Origin: Bradyrhizobium sp. CB82 | GTDB lineage: Bacteria; Pseudomonadota; Alphaproteobacteria; Rhizobiales; Xanthobacteraceae | Assembly (NCBI RefSeq): GCF_029714405.1 | Contig: NZ_CP121650.1 | Location: 4,779,001-4,843,000, forward strand | Direction of reading: 5' to 3' | DNA: 64,000 nucleotides | Part shown: piece after piece, positions 3,826-25,320 of the stretch | Position numbering within the stretch: the stretch's first letter is position 1 | How the letters are laid out: every line of letters begins with the position of its first letter | The notes under the pieces: generated by a model | Database searches by the model: none | Told to the model about the DNA's origin: nothing | The model's input: only the letters and a program-made list of their open reading frames with translations | Made by a program: the position numbers and the translations under genes

Positions 3826-4086
3826 ATGAAGGCGAGGTTCCTGAGGTTCGCGGGCGTGAAGAACCGGGCTCGCCGGGCCTCGACTCTCGGACTATTCCTG
3901 ACGCTGTTTGCATCCGCCGCCTCCGCGCAAGGCACACCCGAGCAGCGCCGGGCCTGCACCCCAGACGTCTACCGCCTCTGCGCCGGCGAGATCCCCAACG
4001 TCCGCGCCATCACCGCCTGCCTGCGTCGCAACAAGGCGAGCCTGAGCGAGGCCTGCCGAGCCGTTTTCGAGCAGGCGGGCGGTTGA
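3826..4086 (+). CDS. Small secreted cysteine-rich-repeat protein
   Basis: 86 residues. A basic N-terminus and hydrophobic stretch end in ASAASAQG, a likely signal-peptidase site after about residue 35. The mature part has four cysteines in the pattern C-x8-C-x11-C-x11-C, within CTPDVYRLC and CLRRNKASLSEAC. This looks like the short cysteine-rich-repeat proteins common in Bradyrhizobium, whose role is unknown. GGGAG stands about 8 bp before the ATG. A perfect CRP-type palindrome lies upstream. Confidence 0.7.
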   Translation: MKARFLRFAGVKNRARRASTLGLFLTLFASAASAQGTPEQRRACTPDVYRLCAGEIPNVRAITACLRRNKASLSEACRAVFEQAGG

Positions 4087-4328: not shown

Positions 4329-4676
4329 TTGCTCGGAGTCCCGGCCATGATCGGCGTCGCGCTGATCGTCGTCCTGGGCATCGTCTTCACCGTCCTGTAC
4401 AAGCGCGCCACGCGCGACGAGGCGTTCGTCCGCACTGGCCTCGGTGGCAAGAAGGTCGTACTCGACGGCGGCGCAATGAGACCCGCCGGCGCGACCGCAA
4501 CGCCATCGTGCGTGACAACGAGGTGGCGATCGCGCAAAAGGACCTCGAGGCGCGGCAGCAGGCCGGGTGAGGATCCCGTGAAGGCGCTGGTCGGCGCCGT
4601 CACCGGCAAGAGCAATGGCGTCGCACGCGAGGTTTCCGCGAGTGTGCCTGCGGCTCAAACCGACGCCGCAGAGTAG
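4329..4676 (+). pseudogene. Flotillin/YqiK-family gene with two internal deletions
   Basis: Three pieces of one flotillin-like protein can be read in order. The N-terminus (frame from 4329) has a membrane helix and YKRATRDEAFVRTGLGG up to LDGGAM. A middle piece in another frame, about 4475-4568, reads RRRDRNAIVRDNEVAIAQ and KDLEARQQAG. A C-terminal piece, back in the first frame (about 4570-4676), begins EDPVKALVGAVTGK. Intact flotillins have 450-600 residues with an SPFH domain after the N-terminal helix; here the SPFH domain and most of the coiled coil are gone. The order of the pieces argues for two deletions in a once complete gene, not for a short new gene. An ATG at 4347 could still give a truncated 109-residue membrane protein. 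Confidence 0.65.
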
Positions 4677-7366: not shown

Positions 7367-7508
7367 GAGTGTAAGGCGCCAGGGCCTGTGGTGGACCGGG
7401 CCCGAGGCTGCTGCCTTCGGGCAATCGCCGTGTTGCGTTTTGGCGAGGCATGTTCCAAAGATGCCGCCACGTTTTCCCGCGGCGCCGTCCGCATTCCAGG
7501 GTTCCCCA

Positions 7509-8174
7509 ATGTCCGGTTTTGCGACCGCGCGCCAAAAGATGGTCGATGGCCAGGTGCGCACCAGTGACGTCACCGATCGCCGCATCCTCGATGCCATGCT
7601 CACGATTCCCCGCGAGATTTTCGTGCCCGCAAGCCGGCAGGCGCTGGCCTATCTCGACCTTGATCTCGATGTTGCCGAGGGCGGATCGGCCAAGCGCTAT
7701 CTGATCAAGCCGGCGCTAACCGCCAAGTTGCTGCAGGCGGCCGAGATTCGCGAGGCCGATCGTGTCCTGGTGGTCGGCTGCGCCACCGGTTACGTCGCCG
7801 CCCTTGCCGCCAGGCTCGCTGCGCAAGTCACGGCGACCGAAAGCGATTCAGCACTCGCGGCAAAAGCGAAGAGCAATCTAGCCGCCCTGGGATTTGCGAA
7901 TGTGGCGTGCGCAGCGGCGCCCAGCGGGGATGGGCATCCGGCCGCGGCTCCCTACGATGTGATCGTCCTGAATGGGGCGACCGAAGTGACGCCCAGCGCG
8001 CTTTTCGAGCAGCTCAAGGAGGGTGGGCGGCTGGTCGGCGTGTCAGCGGAGACGACGCCACAGCGGGCCATGATCGTGACCCGCGCCCACGGCGAATTCG
8101 GCCACCGGGCGCTGTTCGACGCAGCAGCCCCGGTCCTTCCCGGCCTCGCGCGGTCGCCCGCCTTCGTCTTTTGA
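7509..8174 (+). CDS. pcm: Protein-L-isoaspartate O-methyltransferase family protein
   Basis: 221 residues. The N-terminus (ARQKMVDGQVRTSDVTDRRI) and PREIFVP are typical of the alphaproteobacterial PCMT-like branch. The SAM-binding loop is degenerate, VLVVGCATGYVAA instead of VLEIGTGSGYQ. PCMT enzymes repair isoaspartyl residues in damaged proteins. This branch is found next to tolC in rhizobia, as here (tolC follows), and whether it has the repair activity is unproven. The ATG at 7509 fits the conserved N-terminus; upstream in-frame codons are unlike the family. Confidence 0.85.
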   Translation: MSGFATARQKMVDGQVRTSDVTDRRILDAMLTIPREIFVPASRQALAYLDLDLDVAEGGSAKRYLIKPALTAKLLQAAEIREADRVLVVGCATGYVAALAARLAAQVTATESDSALAAKAKSNLAALGFANVACAAAPSGDGHPAAAPYDVIVLNGATEVTPSALFEQLKEGGRLVGVSAETTPQRAMIVTRAHGEFGHRALFDAAAPVLPGLARSPAFVF

Positions 8175-20642: not shown

Positions 20643-22085
20643 ATGCCCGTAGGTAGCATTCTCGTTGCCGATGACGACACCGCCATCCGCACGGTTCTCA
20701 ATCAGGCACTTTCCCGGGCTGGCTATGAAGTCAGGCTGACCGGCAACGCCGCGACGCTATGGCGCTGGGTCAGCCAGGGCGAGGGCGATCTCGTCATCAC
20801 CGACGTGGTGATGCCGGATGAAAACGCCTTCGACCTTTTGCCGCGGATCAAGAAGATGCGGCCGAATCTGCCGGTCATCGTGATGAGCGCGCAGAACACG
20901 TTCATGACGGCGATCCGGGCCTCCGAGCGGGGGGCCTACGAATATCTGCCGAAGCCCTTCGACCTGAAGGAGCTGATCGCGATCGTCGGGCGGGCGCTGG
21001 CCGAGCCGAAGGAGCGGACGTCAAGCCCGGACGAAGACGCCGAGATGGAAGCGATCCCGCTCGTCGGCCGCTCGCCGGCGATGCAGGAGATCTACCGCGT
21101 GCTGGCGCGGCTGATGCAGACTGATCTGACCGTGATGATCACGGGCGAATCCGGCACCGGCAAGGAACTGGTGGCGCGCGCGCTGCACGACTACGGCAAG
21201 CGCCGCAACGGTCCGTTCGTCGCCGTCAACATGGCGGCGATCCCGCGCGACCTCATTGAATCCGAACTGTTCGGCCATGAGCGCGGTGCGTTCACCGGCG
21301 CCAACACCCGTGCCTCCGGCCGTTTCGAGCAGGCCGAGGGCGGTACGCTGTTCCTCGACGAGATCGGTGACATGCCGATGGAAGCACAGACGCGCCTGTT
21401 GCGCGTGCTCCAACAGGGCGAATACACCACCGTCGGCGGCCGCACTCCGATCAAGACCGATGTGCGGATCGTCGCCGCCTCCAACAAGGACCTGCGTGTC
21501 CTGATCCAGCAGGGGCTGTTCCGCGAGGACCTGTTCTTCCGTCTCAATGTCGTGCCGCTGCGGCTACCGCCGCTGCGCGAACGCATCGAGGATCTGCCCG
21601 ATCTGGTGCGTCACTTCTTTGCGCTCGCCGAGAAGGATGGCCTGCCGCCAAAGAAGCTCGATGCACTGGCCCTCGAACGGCTGAAGCAGCATCGCTGGCC
21701 CGGCAACGTCCGCGAGCTGGAAAACCTCGCACGACGTCTCGCCGCGCTCTATCCACAGGACGTGATCACCGCGTCCGTCATCGACGGCGAGCTCGCGCCG
21801 CCCTCGGTTAGCCCGGGAGCCGCCGTCCAGCAAGGCGTCGACAATCTCGGCGGAGCTGTGGAGGCGTATCTGTCCACGCACTTCCAGGGCTTCCCCAACG
21901 GCATGCCGCCGCCTGGCCTCTATCACCGCATCCTCAAGGAGATCGAGGTCCCGCTGCTCACTGCAGCCCTCGCCGCCACCCGCGGCAACCAGATCCGCGC
22001 TGCGGATCTGCTCGGTCTCAACCGCAATACGCTGCGCAAGAAGATCCGGGATCTGGACATCCAGGTCTATCGGAGCGGGGGATAG
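20643..22085 (+). CDS. ntrC: Nitrogen regulation response regulator NtrC (sigma-54 activator)
   Basis: 480 residues. The receiver domain has the acidic pocket DDD (10-12) and phosphoacceptor D54 ([10 protein letters not shown]). The AAA+ domain has Walker [12 protein letters not shown], the sigma-54-contacting loop GAFTGA and Walker [13 protein letters not shown]. The C-terminal Fis-type helix-turn-helix is [16 protein letters not shown]. It activates nitrogen-scavenging genes from -24/-12 promoters. The last 87 bp of the gene (21999-22085) are repeated in diverged form at 22598-22684. Confidence 0.97.
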
Positions 22086-22223
22086 GGTCCTCGGATGTCA
22101 CTCCGGGGGCGTCTCGTGAAGCGGCGCCCGCGGAATCTCGAAATTCCACTCGTCGAAAGGCCGCCCCAGCGTTGTTTGGGCAGGCCCATCCGCATGCGGT
22201 TCCGTCGGCGTGTCACAAGAATT

Positions 22224-22239
22224 TGGCACAGTTCGTGCA
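22224..22239 (+). promoter_or_regulatory. Candidate sigma-54 promoter just downstream of ntrC
   Basis: TGGCACAGTTCGTGCA has a perfect -24 half (TGGCAC), the right spacing and a -12 GC. It matches 10 of the 12 consensus positions. It lies 139 bp after the ntrC stop and points towards the terminator-like hairpin at 22276-22307 and the small gene at 22400. Transcription would begin near 22250. Confidence 0.5.
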
Positions 22240-22249
22240 AAACAATGCT

Positions 22250-22307
22250 AGCCCGGGATTTTGTTGTTTCCCTACCGGGGATGGAGCAGTGGCTCCCCGC
22301 ATTTTTT
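22250..22307 (+). ncRNA. Possible sigma-54-dependent small RNA downstream of ntrC
   Basis: The candidate promoter at 22224-22239 would start an RNA near 22250. A GC-rich hairpin followed by six T's would end it near 22307, giving about 58 nt. The first half contains an unstructured U-rich stretch (TTTTGTTGTTTCCCT), which would suit Hfq binding. The layout recalls nitrogen-controlled rhizobial sRNAs, but no homology was established. The RNA could also be the leader of the small gene at 22400 with attenuation at the hairpin. Confidence 0.35.
22276..22307 (+). terminator. Intrinsic-terminator-like hairpin with T6
   Basis: The stem CGGGGA/TCCCCG (22276-22281 with 22294-22299) has a 12-base loop and is followed by CATTTTTT. 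It could end transcription of ntrC or of the proposed small RNA. A further GC-rich hairpin (GGGCGCT ... AGGCGCCC) lies just after it. Confidence 0.5.
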
Positions 22308-22399
22308 CGGGCGGGGGGCGCTCTCGCTAGGCGCCCGAATTTCTCGTGCGCAAGCAGAATCTCGTTAGTCCCAGCCGCGTTCTCGTCGGAGCTAGCATC

Positions 22400-22594
22400 A
22401 TGACCGCAGAGGAATGCCAGGAACTCGCAAGCCACTATAAAAGCCTGTCGCGGGCCACCGATATTTCCAAGGACCGCGCTTTCCTAATGCAAAATATCGC
22501 GAGGAGCTTTTCCGGCTTGGCTACTCAATTGGACAGGCTTGCCGCACTCGTGAGAGACGAAGCTAGGTCACCCGAGAGGGACACGGCAAGATAA
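22400..22594 (+). CDS. Small helical hypothetical protein between ntrC and ntrY
   Basis: 64 residues. The sequence is all-helical in appearance and charged (CQELASHYKSLSRATD, then FSGLATQLDRLAALVRDEA). It has no signal peptide or membrane segment and one cysteine. Similar short proteins occur in Bradyrhizobium, from memory. It lies downstream of the candidate sigma-54 promoter, so nitrogen control is possible. Its stop codon is 3 bp before the duplicated ntrC tail, so the gene may have arrived with whatever event made the duplication. Function unknown. Confidence 0.6.
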   Translation: MTAEECQELASHYKSLSRATDISKDRAFLMQNIARSFSGLATQLDRLAALVRDEARSPERDTAR

Positions 22595-22597
22595 GCC

Positions 22598-22684
22598 GCC
22601 GCGGACCTGCTCGGTCTCAACCGCAATACGCTGCGCAAGAAGATCCGGGATCTGGGTATCCTGGTCGATCGGAGCGGAGGCTGA
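22598..22684 (+). repeat. Second, diverged copy of the ntrC 3' end
   Basis: These 87 bp align without gaps to 21999-22085 (ntrC C-terminus), 77 of 87 bases identical. The frame is kept: it reads [20 protein letters not shown] through RSGG and a TGA stop. Differences include synonymous ones in the first codons. No start or upstream coding part exists, so it is an orphan tail. It marks an ancient insertion, partial duplication or gene conversion at the end of ntrC. Confidence 0.9.
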
Positions 22685-22860
22685 TCAAAGTCGCAGCTGC
22701 GTACGCCAGATTGGCTTGAGGGCTTCAAGGCTCAACAGGACGGCTGCGGCCGCGGCAAGTGTCACGAGTACATCATCGCCATGGAACCTGCTGGGGCGGC
22801 GCTTGGCCGCGGGTGGCGACTGTTGTGGATGCGCGGCTCCGACGCGGTTGGGATGCCGCG

Positions 22861-22920
22861 GAATTGTCGCAATTCGGCAACAATGTGATATGAATGCATC
22901 AGTATCCGTGATCCACGGAT
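22861..22920. promoter_or_regulatory. Two perfect palindromes upstream of ntrY
   Basis: GAATTG-TCG-CAATTC (22861-22875) and ATCCGTG-ATC-CACGGAT (22904-22920) lie within 90 bp of the ntrY start. Either could be an operator. The preceding region 22685-22860 has no other recognisable feature. Confidence 0.4.
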
Positions 22921-22947
22921 CCCGTTTTCAGCATCACCATTGCCGGA

Positions 22948-25320
22948 ATGACCAGCGCAGACACTTCGGCTACCTCGGCCGCAGCCTTTGAGACGTCGCC
23001 AGCAGATGAGCCCAAGCGCGGCTTCTTGCGGCGCTGGCTGGCGCCGTTTGCGGTCGGCCTGGCGCTGCTGTCGGCCTTCCTGACCTTCGTGATCCTCACC
23101 GGCCTGACACGGATCGAGCCGACGCAGGATGTCGTCAGGTCGTTCCTGATGATCAACGCCGGCACCATCCTGCTCCTCGTCGGCATCATCGTCCACGAGA
23201 TCTGGCAGATGATCCAGGCGCGCCGGCGCGGGCGGGCGGCGGCGCGGCTGCACTTCCAGATCGTGGGGCTGTTTTCGGTGATCGCGGTACTGCCGGCGGT
23301 GCTGGTCGCGATCGTCGCCAACGTCACCATCGAACGCGGCCTCGACCGGCTGTTCTCCGGGCCGACCAAGGAGGTGATCCAGAACTCGCTGACGATTGCG
23401 CTCGCCTATATGCAGGACCACGCGCAGCTCATTCGCGGCGACATTCTGGGAATGGCGAACGACATCGCGCACGCCCGACCTCTCTACGACCAGGACCGGC
23501 GGTCGTTTCGCGAGCTGCTGACGGCGAGCGCAAGCTCCCGGAACCTGCCGGGGGCGATGATCATCGACAAGGATACCAACATCCTGGAATCGGCCGATAC
23601 CGGCATCCGGCTCGCCTATTCGCCTCCGGCGCCGGACTTCCTCAGCAATGTCGGTGAGAGCGAGCCGGAGATCGCCGTCCTGCCCGAAAACAACTACGTG
23701 GCGGCCGTGATCCGGCTCCGCGCCTTCAACGACACCTTCCTCTATGTCGCCCGTCAGCTCGACCCTCGCGTCGTGGCGCAGGTCAAGCAGACCCAGCTGG
23801 GCGTCGCCGAATATGCGCAGATCGAATCGCGCAGGCTGGGCATCCAGGTCGCGTTCGCGCTGATGTTCGCGGTCATCGCGCTGACCATCCTGATGGCCTC
23901 GGTGCTGATCGGGCTGAACTTCGCCAATTGGCTGGTGGCGCCGATCAGGCGGCTGATGAACGCAGCCCATACCGTTTCGACCGGCGACCTCCATGTCCAG
24001 GTCCCCGTGCACAAATCCGAAGGCGATCTTGCCCAGCTCGGCGAGACCTTCAACAAGATGACCCAGGAGCTGCGCAGCCAGCGCGACGAGCTGGTCAGCG
24101 CCAGCGACCTGATCGACAGCCGCCGCCGCTTTATCGAGGCCGTGCTGTCCTCGGCCTCCGCCGGCATCATCGGCGTCGATGCCTCCGGCAGCGTCGGCAT
24201 CCTGAACCGGTCTGCGGAGAAGCTGATCGGGCACGCCGAGTCCGAGACGCTCGGCCATCCCTTGTCGGAAGTGCTGCCCGAGCTCGACGACATGATGAAG
24301 ACCGCGCGGGAAGGCACCCAGCGGCTCGTGCAGGGCCAGATCACCATCATGCGCGACGCTCAGGAGCGCAACCTGTCGGTCCGCGTCAGCGCGGAGAAGA
24401 CCAGCCAGCCGCGCGACAGCTATATCATCACGCTCGACGACATCACCGAGCTCGTCTCGGCGCAGCGCACCTCGGCCTGGGGCGACGTGGCGCGCCGTAT
24501 TGCCCACGAGATCAAGAACCCGCTGACGCCGATCCAGCTCTCCGCCGAGCGCATCCGCCGCAAATTCGGCAAGACCATCACGGAAGAAAAGGACAAGTCG
24601 GTGTTCGACCAGTGCACCGACACCATCGTGCGCCAGGTCGACGACATCCGCCGCATGGTCGACGAGTTCTCGCGCTTTGCACGCATGCCAAAACCCGTGA
24701 TGGAAGGCGAGGACGTCGTCGATACCGTGCGGCAGGCTGTGTTCCTGATGAAGGTCGCGCATCCCGAGTTCGACATCGAGACGACATTCAAGGAAGACCC
24801 GCTGCGCGCGCAGTTCGACCGCCGGCTGATCTCGCAGGCCGTCACCAACATCGTCAAGAACGCGACGGAAGCAATCGAGCAGGTGCCACCGGAAGAGCTC
24901 GGCAAGGGCCGCATCGACGTCGTGGTCTCGCGTGAAGACCAGGACGTGCTGATCGACGTCGTCGACAACGGTATCGGCCTGCCCAAGGTCGCGCGCTCGC
25001 GGCTGCTCGAGCCCTACGTCACGACGCGGGCCAAGGGCACCGGCCTCGGGCTTGCGATCGTCGGCCGCGTCCTGGAGGACCATGGCGGGCGCATCGAATT
25101 GAAGGATGCCTCCGACTTCCGGGAAGGCCAGCGCGGCGCCTGGATGCGGATGCGTTTTGCCATCTCGGGCCATGCCAACACCATCGAGGTGAAAGCCGCG
25201 GCCCAAAATAACCAGGAAACAACCAAAGAACCGGACACAAAGGTGCCGGCCGCCGAAACCAAAGAGCCGGCAGAAAAGACTAATGATGCAACAAGAATCG
25301 AAGCCTCAACAGGCAACTGA
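22948..25320 (+). CDS. ntrY: Nitrogen regulation sensor kinase NtrY
   Basis: 790 residues, membrane-bound. Three N-terminal transmembrane helices lie within about residues 30-135. A periplasmic region of about 150 residues and a further helix (about 290-315) follow, then HAMP (WLVAPIRRLMNAAHTVSTGD), PAS (VLSSASAGIIGVDASGSVGI) and HisKA ([20 protein letters not shown]). HATPase_c boxes are VDNGIGLP and GTGLGLAIVGRVLEDHGG. The C-terminal tail of about 45 residues is Glu/Lys/Thr-rich and probably disordered. It pairs with NtrX, 17 bp downstream, in nitrogen and redox-linked control. Confidence 0.96.
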   Translation: MTSADTSATSAAAFETSPADEPKRGFLRRWLAPFAVGLALLSAFLTFVILTGLTRIEPTQDVVRSFLMINAGTILLLVGIIVHEIWQMIQARRRGRAAARLHFQIVGLFSVIAVLPAVLVAIVANVTIERGLDRLFSGPTKEVIQNSLTIALAYMQDHAQLIRGDILGMANDIAHARPLYDQDRRSFRELLTASASSRNLPGAMIIDKDTNILESADTGIRLAYSPPAPDFLSNVGESEPEIAVLPENNYVAAVIRLRAFNDTFLYVARQLDPRVVAQVKQTQLGVAEYAQIESRRLGIQVAFALMFAVIALTILMASVLIGLNFANWLVAPIRRLMNAAHTVSTGDLHVQVPVHKSEGDLAQLGETFNKMTQELRSQRDELVSASDLIDSRRRFIEAVLSSASAGIIGVDASGSVGILNRSAEKLIGHAESETLGHPLSEVLPELDDMMKTAREGTQRLVQGQITIMRDAQERNLSVRVSAEKTSQPRDSYIITLDDITELVSAQRTSAWGDVARRIAHEIKNPLTPIQLSAERIRRKFGKTITEEKDKSVFDQCTDTIVRQVDDIRRMVDEFSRFARMPKPVMEGEDVVDTVRQAVFLMKVAHPEFDIETTFKEDPLRAQFDRRLISQAVTNIVKNATEAIEQVPPEELGKGRIDVVVSREDQDVLIDVVDNGIGLPKVARSRLLEPYVTTRAKGTGLGLAIVGRVLEDHGGRIELKDASDFREGQRGAWMRMRFAISGHANTIEVKAAAQNNQETTKEPDTKVPAAETKEPAEKTNDATRIEASTGN

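Follow-up and report, generated by a model that had tools for sequence, protein, structure and literature searches.

We found that the 3' end of ntrC occurs twice in Bradyrhizobium sp. CB82, once as the proper end of the intact gene (tail 1) and once further downstream as a decayed copy (tail 2), which abuts the relic of a convergent cation-transporting ATPase gene just ahead of the ntrY leader. This structure was probably produced by the tandem merger of two ntrC 3' neighbourhoods through one homologous and one non-homologous joint, and tail 2 is most likely the relic of an ntrC end from a different version of the neighbourhood. The window analysed here is a stretch of 64,000 nucleotides (contig NZ_CP121650.1, positions 4,779,001 to 4,843,000) of a 10.1-Mb genome labelled G000; other genomes carry G-numbers and loci L-numbers. 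The features between ntrC and ntrY, in window positions, are as follows.

20643-22085, plus strand: ntrC, intact, 480 codons, ending in tail 1 (TAG); matches to TIGR01818, PF00158 and PF02954
21999-22085, plus strand: tail 1, the last 29 ntrC codons including the stop, 77/87 identical to tail 2
22094-22149, unstranded: Br-REP-type repeat (REP) after tail 1, with dispersed similar copies in many genomes of the genus
22223-22239, plus strand: sigma-54-type -24/-12 motif, TTGGCAC-N5-GTGCA, with comparative support
22253-22321, plus strand: two-hairpin RNA-like element (hairpin 1, 22253-22280; hairpin 2, 22289-22321), some pairs being broken in the G000 copy
22400-22594, plus strand: p64, a 64-codon open reading frame (22400-22591 plus stop) of a small Bradyrhizobium protein family with dispersed paralogues
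22598-22684, plus strand: tail 2, a decayed, start-less copy of the ntrC 3' end with a TGA stop, from alignment with tail 1
22685-22820 (upstream end approximate), minus strand: relic, 3' end of a convergent cation-transporting P-type ATPase gene, from protein and nucleotide alignment with G030
22824-22947, unstranded: ntrY leader, native to this clade (compared as segment 22815-22947)
22948-25320, plus strand: ntrY, with PF19312 (NtrY_N) and histidine-kinase domains

The two tails align without gaps and are identical at 77 of 87 positions, which reproduces the repeat reported in a preliminary description of this DNA; an 84-nt core has 92% identity at a spacing of 599. Since the runner-up ungapped match to tail 1 on the plus strand of the window reaches only 42/87, a chance match is excluded. 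Both translations end in RSGG, and the downstream copy has, as first described, a stop of its own (TGA, as against TAG in tail 1). The upstream gene scores 746.7 bits against the ntrC model TIGR01818 (cut-off 558.6), and its normal C-terminus is supplied by tail 1, which encodes the usual residue wherever the tails differ; the NtrC protein is not altered by the duplication. A narrow literature search on ntrC/ntrY duplication and insertion retrieved no report of a duplicated ntrC end in Bradyrhizobium among the partial texts it covered.

Tail 2 is in frame with p64 and positioned behind the TAA stop of that frame. Three of its changes, D20G, Q22L and Y24D, fall on residues that are kept in 118/120, 120/120 and 115/120 of the other tails, respectively; among these 120 distinct comparison tails are the decayed second tail of G158 and six from loci of other families in the order. 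Because of these three changes at near-invariant residues, and because it has no start of its own, tail 2 is, judging from its sequence, a drifted non-coding relic. The remaining differing codons, the stop apart, are synonymous, an observation from which the preliminary description had suggested coding evolution of one or both tails; the observation stands for those codons, while the three non-synonymous changes indicate drift in tail 2. Tail 2 is 10 bases away from tail 1 and likewise 10 from several other tails, and is no closer to that of G030 than to those of other species.

The sequences downstream of the two tails are unrelated, tail 1 being followed by the REP and tail 2 by the ATPase 3' end. 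The ATPase relic is identical in 24 of 31 residues to the C-terminus of the ATPase of G030, whose gene belongs to Cation_ATPase_C (PF00689). In G030 the stop codons of the convergent ATPase and ntrC genes are 4 nt apart; in G000 the stop of the relic abuts that of tail 2. The REP matches the published Br-REP1 core at 16 of 20 bases (22130-22149). In published work on Bradyrhizobium, Br-REP1 and Br-REP2 repeats are described, and in B. japonicum USDA 110 both a sense and an antisense RNA come from the 3' region of ntrC (PMC5082802, PMC4842269). G000 resembles these descriptions in having a REP directly after ntrC, and differs from many genomes of the genus in lacking the hairpin segment that follows ntrC there. 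At many loci (e.g. L012 1737-2243) the ntrC-ntrY interval is about 500 bp long and holds a conserved hairpin downstream of ntrC, together with a short minus-strand frame picked out by eye; this interval may correspond to the 3'-seR/3'-asR ntrC RNA region of USDA 110.

Comparison with the closest relatives delimits the additional DNA. Two genomes, G017 and G214, group with G000 at support 100/100 on both the left-flank tree (dusB-ntrB-ntrC, 14 rows) and the right-flank tree (ntrY-ntrX, 13 rows; G315 dropped for too little sequence). Both have a single tail, a REP 11-12 nt past the stop, nearly the same distance as in G000, and then the ntrY leader; p64, the ATPase relic and the RNA-like element are absent from their ntrC-ntrY interval. 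The extra DNA of G000 relative to these two genomes therefore extends from about 22150 to about 22823, tail 2 included, so that the 513-bp insert first proposed between the tails was correct as DNA added relative to single-tail relatives but not in its limits. Identity over segment 22815-22947 is 94% with G017, 90% with G214 and 79-85% with other genomes (those matching over at least about 70% of its length). The ntrY leader is 81% G030-like across 70% of its length, and the sequence on either side of the added segment is most similar to that of G017.

Which tail is the newcomer is less simple than initially described. The preliminary model in its simple form took tail 1 as the replacement; the arrangement of tail 1 and REP kept in G017 and G214 speaks against this but does not refute it, since G030, a more distant relative, shows the tail-2 arrangement, and repeats scattered as widely through the genus as the REPs say little about common descent. 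We had also considered tail 2 and the ATPase end as the certainly native side, a view made uncertain by the REP that both sister species have behind ntrC. Of 45 clade-diagnostic sites in ntrB-ntrC, 23 place G000 beside the sister pair, 20 beside the other clade and 2 beside neither; they reveal no clear crossover point along the two genes.

A survey of the genus, scoring three candidates per genome, found an ntrC-tail match in 258 of 265 genomes, with two matches in eight of them, G000 included. A second tail close to ntrC is present only in G000, G158 and G297 (on the same strand in the latter two). Since single-tail relatives, whose existence in the ntrC-ntrY interval had been posed as a check, are common and the second copy is confined to these three genomes, the DNA was added in G000. 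The remaining double matches are of other kinds: those of G174, G196 and G267 are 31-33 bases long and lie elsewhere; in G160 the tail is repeated at both ends of one contig, which we read as contig overlap because ntrX and hfq are repeated there too; and the two tails of G014, both at contig ends, are probably an assembly fault. In G080, 22 bases resembling the tail turned out to be a REP.

The two parallel cases differ from G000 in size and content. In G158 the tails are 663 bp apart and the repeat is about 146 bp long (89%), with a frame-shifted second tail. Tail 1 is followed there by a 490-bp segment that is 78% identical to the segment at the same place after ntrC in G080, and the second tail is continued by the hairpin found after ntrC in many species. 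In G297 the tails are 8.85 kb apart and the repeat is 216 bp long (97%); 8.6 kb with dehydrogenase, MFS, amidohydrolase and gluconolactonase-like genes follow tail 1, and the 250 bp after the second tail are 88% identical to the sequence downstream of ntrC in G065. Singly, then, both neighbourhoods are known for G158, the tail-2 side is known for G297 (G065), and for G000 the tail-2 side (G030) and, up to the REP, the tail-1 side. No similarity was found between the G000 spacer and the spacers of G158, G080 and G297, compared on the same strand. In its ntrC-ntrY interval G158 also carries a second insertion, bordered on both sides by a direct repeat (60 bp, 92%) of the ntrC 3' hairpin (L190, oriented 2747-2805 / 3943-4002) and holding a 354-codon frame with a SEC-C match below the curated cut-off. 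A second insertion zone, about 3-26 kb long and with a gene content known from lists of open reading frames, separates the hairpin segment from the ntrY leader in G067, G005, G063, G084, G058, G068, G007 and G047.

Two other gene ends served as controls. The ntrX 3' end was matched in 198/265 genomes by a probe less sensitive than that for ntrC; besides G160, a second match occurred only in G184 (30 bases, on another contig), so that no adjacent duplicate was found in the 198 matching genomes, the contig overlap of G160 aside. The hfq 3' end was matched in 260/265, with weak second matches in many. Duplication of the ntrC end thus recurs in the genus; with three cases and a less sensitive ntrX control, we do not claim an excess as proven.

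The spacer between the tails holds an RNA-like element and a single plausible protein gene. The two-hairpin pattern was found, at two mismatches or fewer, in 26 copies in 21 of 265 genomes, and the reversed pattern in none. Twenty-two of the 26 copies were aligned, L217, L218 and L219 being omitted for an unlike downstream part and L238 for repeating L232; in this alignment 4 of 17 predicted pairs are changed on both sides with pairing kept. Neither the window copy nor the loci tried matched Rfam 15. The family is seen also at L176, L220, L223, L231, L232 and L238. A sigma-54-like promoter had been noted here, and the -24/-12 motif is backed by comparison: a matching motif stands 28-30 nt upstream of the first hairpin in 7/26 copies, of which L232 and L238 look identical, the pattern having been written after some copies had been seen. 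USDA 110 has multi-copy small RNAs, BjsR5 and BjsR6, one copy with a predicted RpoN-type promoter (PMC5082802). The terminator noted at 22283-22296 is about at shuffle level (1 found, 0.6 expected), yet overlaps the two-hairpin element found in other genomes.

The 64-residue gene noted earlier was found as described and is, by the list of open reading frames, the only plausible protein gene in the spacer. It has 6 homologous proteins (best 83% across the full length) and 8 named Bradyrhizobium loci; NCBIfam gave no match, and the one to Pfam stayed below threshold. Flanking direct repeats were seen at 4 of 27 p64-family loci (L153, L156, L171 and L174), some of the 27 being the same place fetched twice. 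They bracket p64 in L153 (506-631 / 1863-1988; 126 bp, 71%), L171 (2825-2931 / 4568-4674; 107 bp, 93%) and L174 (358-584 / 7374-7598; 227 bp, 89%). Scoring the best two candidates per genome, we found neither the RNA-like element nor p64 beside ntrC in the other 264 genomes.

We favour a merger of two versions of the region, since tail 2 is followed by an ATPase end as in G030 and tail 1 by a REP as in G017 and G214. Alternative ntrC 3' neighbourhoods circulate in the genus, with ntrC next to a REP in one of them and against a convergent cation ATPase gene in another. Version A would comprise ntrC with tail 1, the REP, the RNA-like element and p64, and version B tail 2 with the ATPase 3' end, placed just ahead of the ntrY leader. 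Incoming DNA with one version may have recombined by homology within ntrC at its left end, while its right end would have been attached, through a non-homologous (short-homology) event, within the final stretch of the other ntrC copy, a route of homology-facilitated illegitimate recombination; the remainder of the ATPase gene would have been lost or never have arrived. The structure is consistent with this, one end being anchored in ntrC (continuous with tail 1) and the joint of spacer and tail 2 lying inside ntrC sequence, with unrelated sequences after the tails. CGGCAA and AGAT, seen by eye to be shared near that joint, are candidate microhomologies. A merger is further favoured by the parallel cases, where neighbourhoods known elsewhere meet on both sides in G158 and on the tail-2 side in G297, and by the ntrX end, which is without adjacent duplicates in the 198 genomes where it matched, G160 aside. 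Against it, the tail-1 side is known from other genomes no further than the REP (best two candidates in each of the other 264 genomes), tail 2 shows no special closeness to G030, ntrB-ntrC holds no clear crossover and the cases number just three.

The G017-like flanks fit equally well a ready-made piece of RNA element, p64, tail 2 and ATPase end inserted at a G017-like site. Here tail 1 and the REP would be native, and a chimeric piece of about 675 bp (about 22150-22823), comprising the RNA element, p64 and a foreign ntrC end with the ATPase 3' end, would have entered in a single step, landing between REP and ntrY leader, e.g. by end-joining of captured fragments. The ntrC-REP-ntrY order of G017 and G214, with nothing else between, and the ntrY leader next to the relic, 94% G017-like and less G030-like, speak for such an event. 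It requires, however, that p64, the ntrC fragment and the ATPase end were joined beforehand or that several fragments were caught together; the shared REP counts for little given its dispersal, and the ntrC-end duplications in G158 and G297 suggest a role for ntrC homology. We consider this one-step insertion unlikely. A local partial duplication of the gene's own end, with unrelated DNA acquired between the copies, had been the second option of the preliminary description. It would agree with the distance between the tails, which is no larger than that between tail 2 and the tails of other species, and with the 97% identity of the copies in G297. However, the same sequence was not seen after both copies, and what follows tail 2 matches the ntrC-ATPase junction of another species; such a junction would not result from copying a gene end of the REP type locally, and we regard this origin as very improbable.

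Integrative elements that insert at gene 3' ends bring a replacement tail, and the preliminary description had proposed such an element at the end of ntrC. On this reading, only an internal remnant would now be left. The resemblance lies in the direct repeat of a gene end flanking the added DNA, in the gene left intact and in the single-tail sites of relatives. The likeness does not extend further: no match to the phage-integrase family PF00589 was found in the ntrC-ntrY interval of the five genomes with added DNA (G000, G158, G297, G068 and G080), which favours the merger, and Pfam scans of chosen frames in the added DNA of G297, G080 and G158 revealed no other recombinase or transposase. The only integrase found between ntrC and ntrY, in G011, belongs to DNA that splits the ntrY leader and not the ntrC end. 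Repeat lengths before the stop are unequal (87 bp in G000, about 146 in G158, 216 in G297), though a common attachment core may lie inside the 87 bp common to all three, and the spacers are unrelated on the strand compared. An integrase-brought replacement tail was accordingly rejected as first choice, and we hold a site-specific recombinase with its attachment site at the ntrC 3' end to be quite improbable. Elsewhere in the window, a fragment of a phage-integrase-family gene (2643-2768, profile positions 130-170) lies just before tRNA-Cys (2902-2975) and is perhaps the trace of an island.

The merger that we favour has partial counterparts in other bacteria. For the Vibrio cholerae T6SS effector-immunity arrays and orphan Rhs 3' regions, the authors propose that 3' ends were displaced by homology-facilitated illegitimate recombination (PMC5361080). 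Shared features are an upstream homology anchor, new DNA joined non-homologously and an old 3' part orphaned downstream; ntrC differs in being a housekeeping regulator with a conserved tail, a decaying orphan and no evident benefit from its retention. Many gene-gain hotspots have no integrases and show signs of recombination in the core genes beside them (PMC5635113). The variable DNA between the conserved ntrC and ntrY, with no recognised integrase in the five genomes checked, is similar, whereas the model given there is a double crossover with no duplicated gene end and in G000 one joint is non-homologous.

The region thus offers a natural case, with two more in the genus, of accessory DNA placed beside a core regulator, apparently free of an integrase and leaving a decaying scar. 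By analogy with the RNAs of USDA 110 (PMC5082802, PMC4842269), a swap of the ntrC 3' region may alter ntrC regulation. More tentatively, the ntrC 3' end might be a recurrent integrase-free docking site, at which cargo travelling on a donor ntrC end is added by homology, an idea that we think rather doubtful. If true, the cargo would range from an RNA-like element with a sigma-54-type motif and a small gene to an 8.6-kb catabolic cluster, and the regulator would stay intact while its 3' regulatory RNAs and neighbours are swapped.
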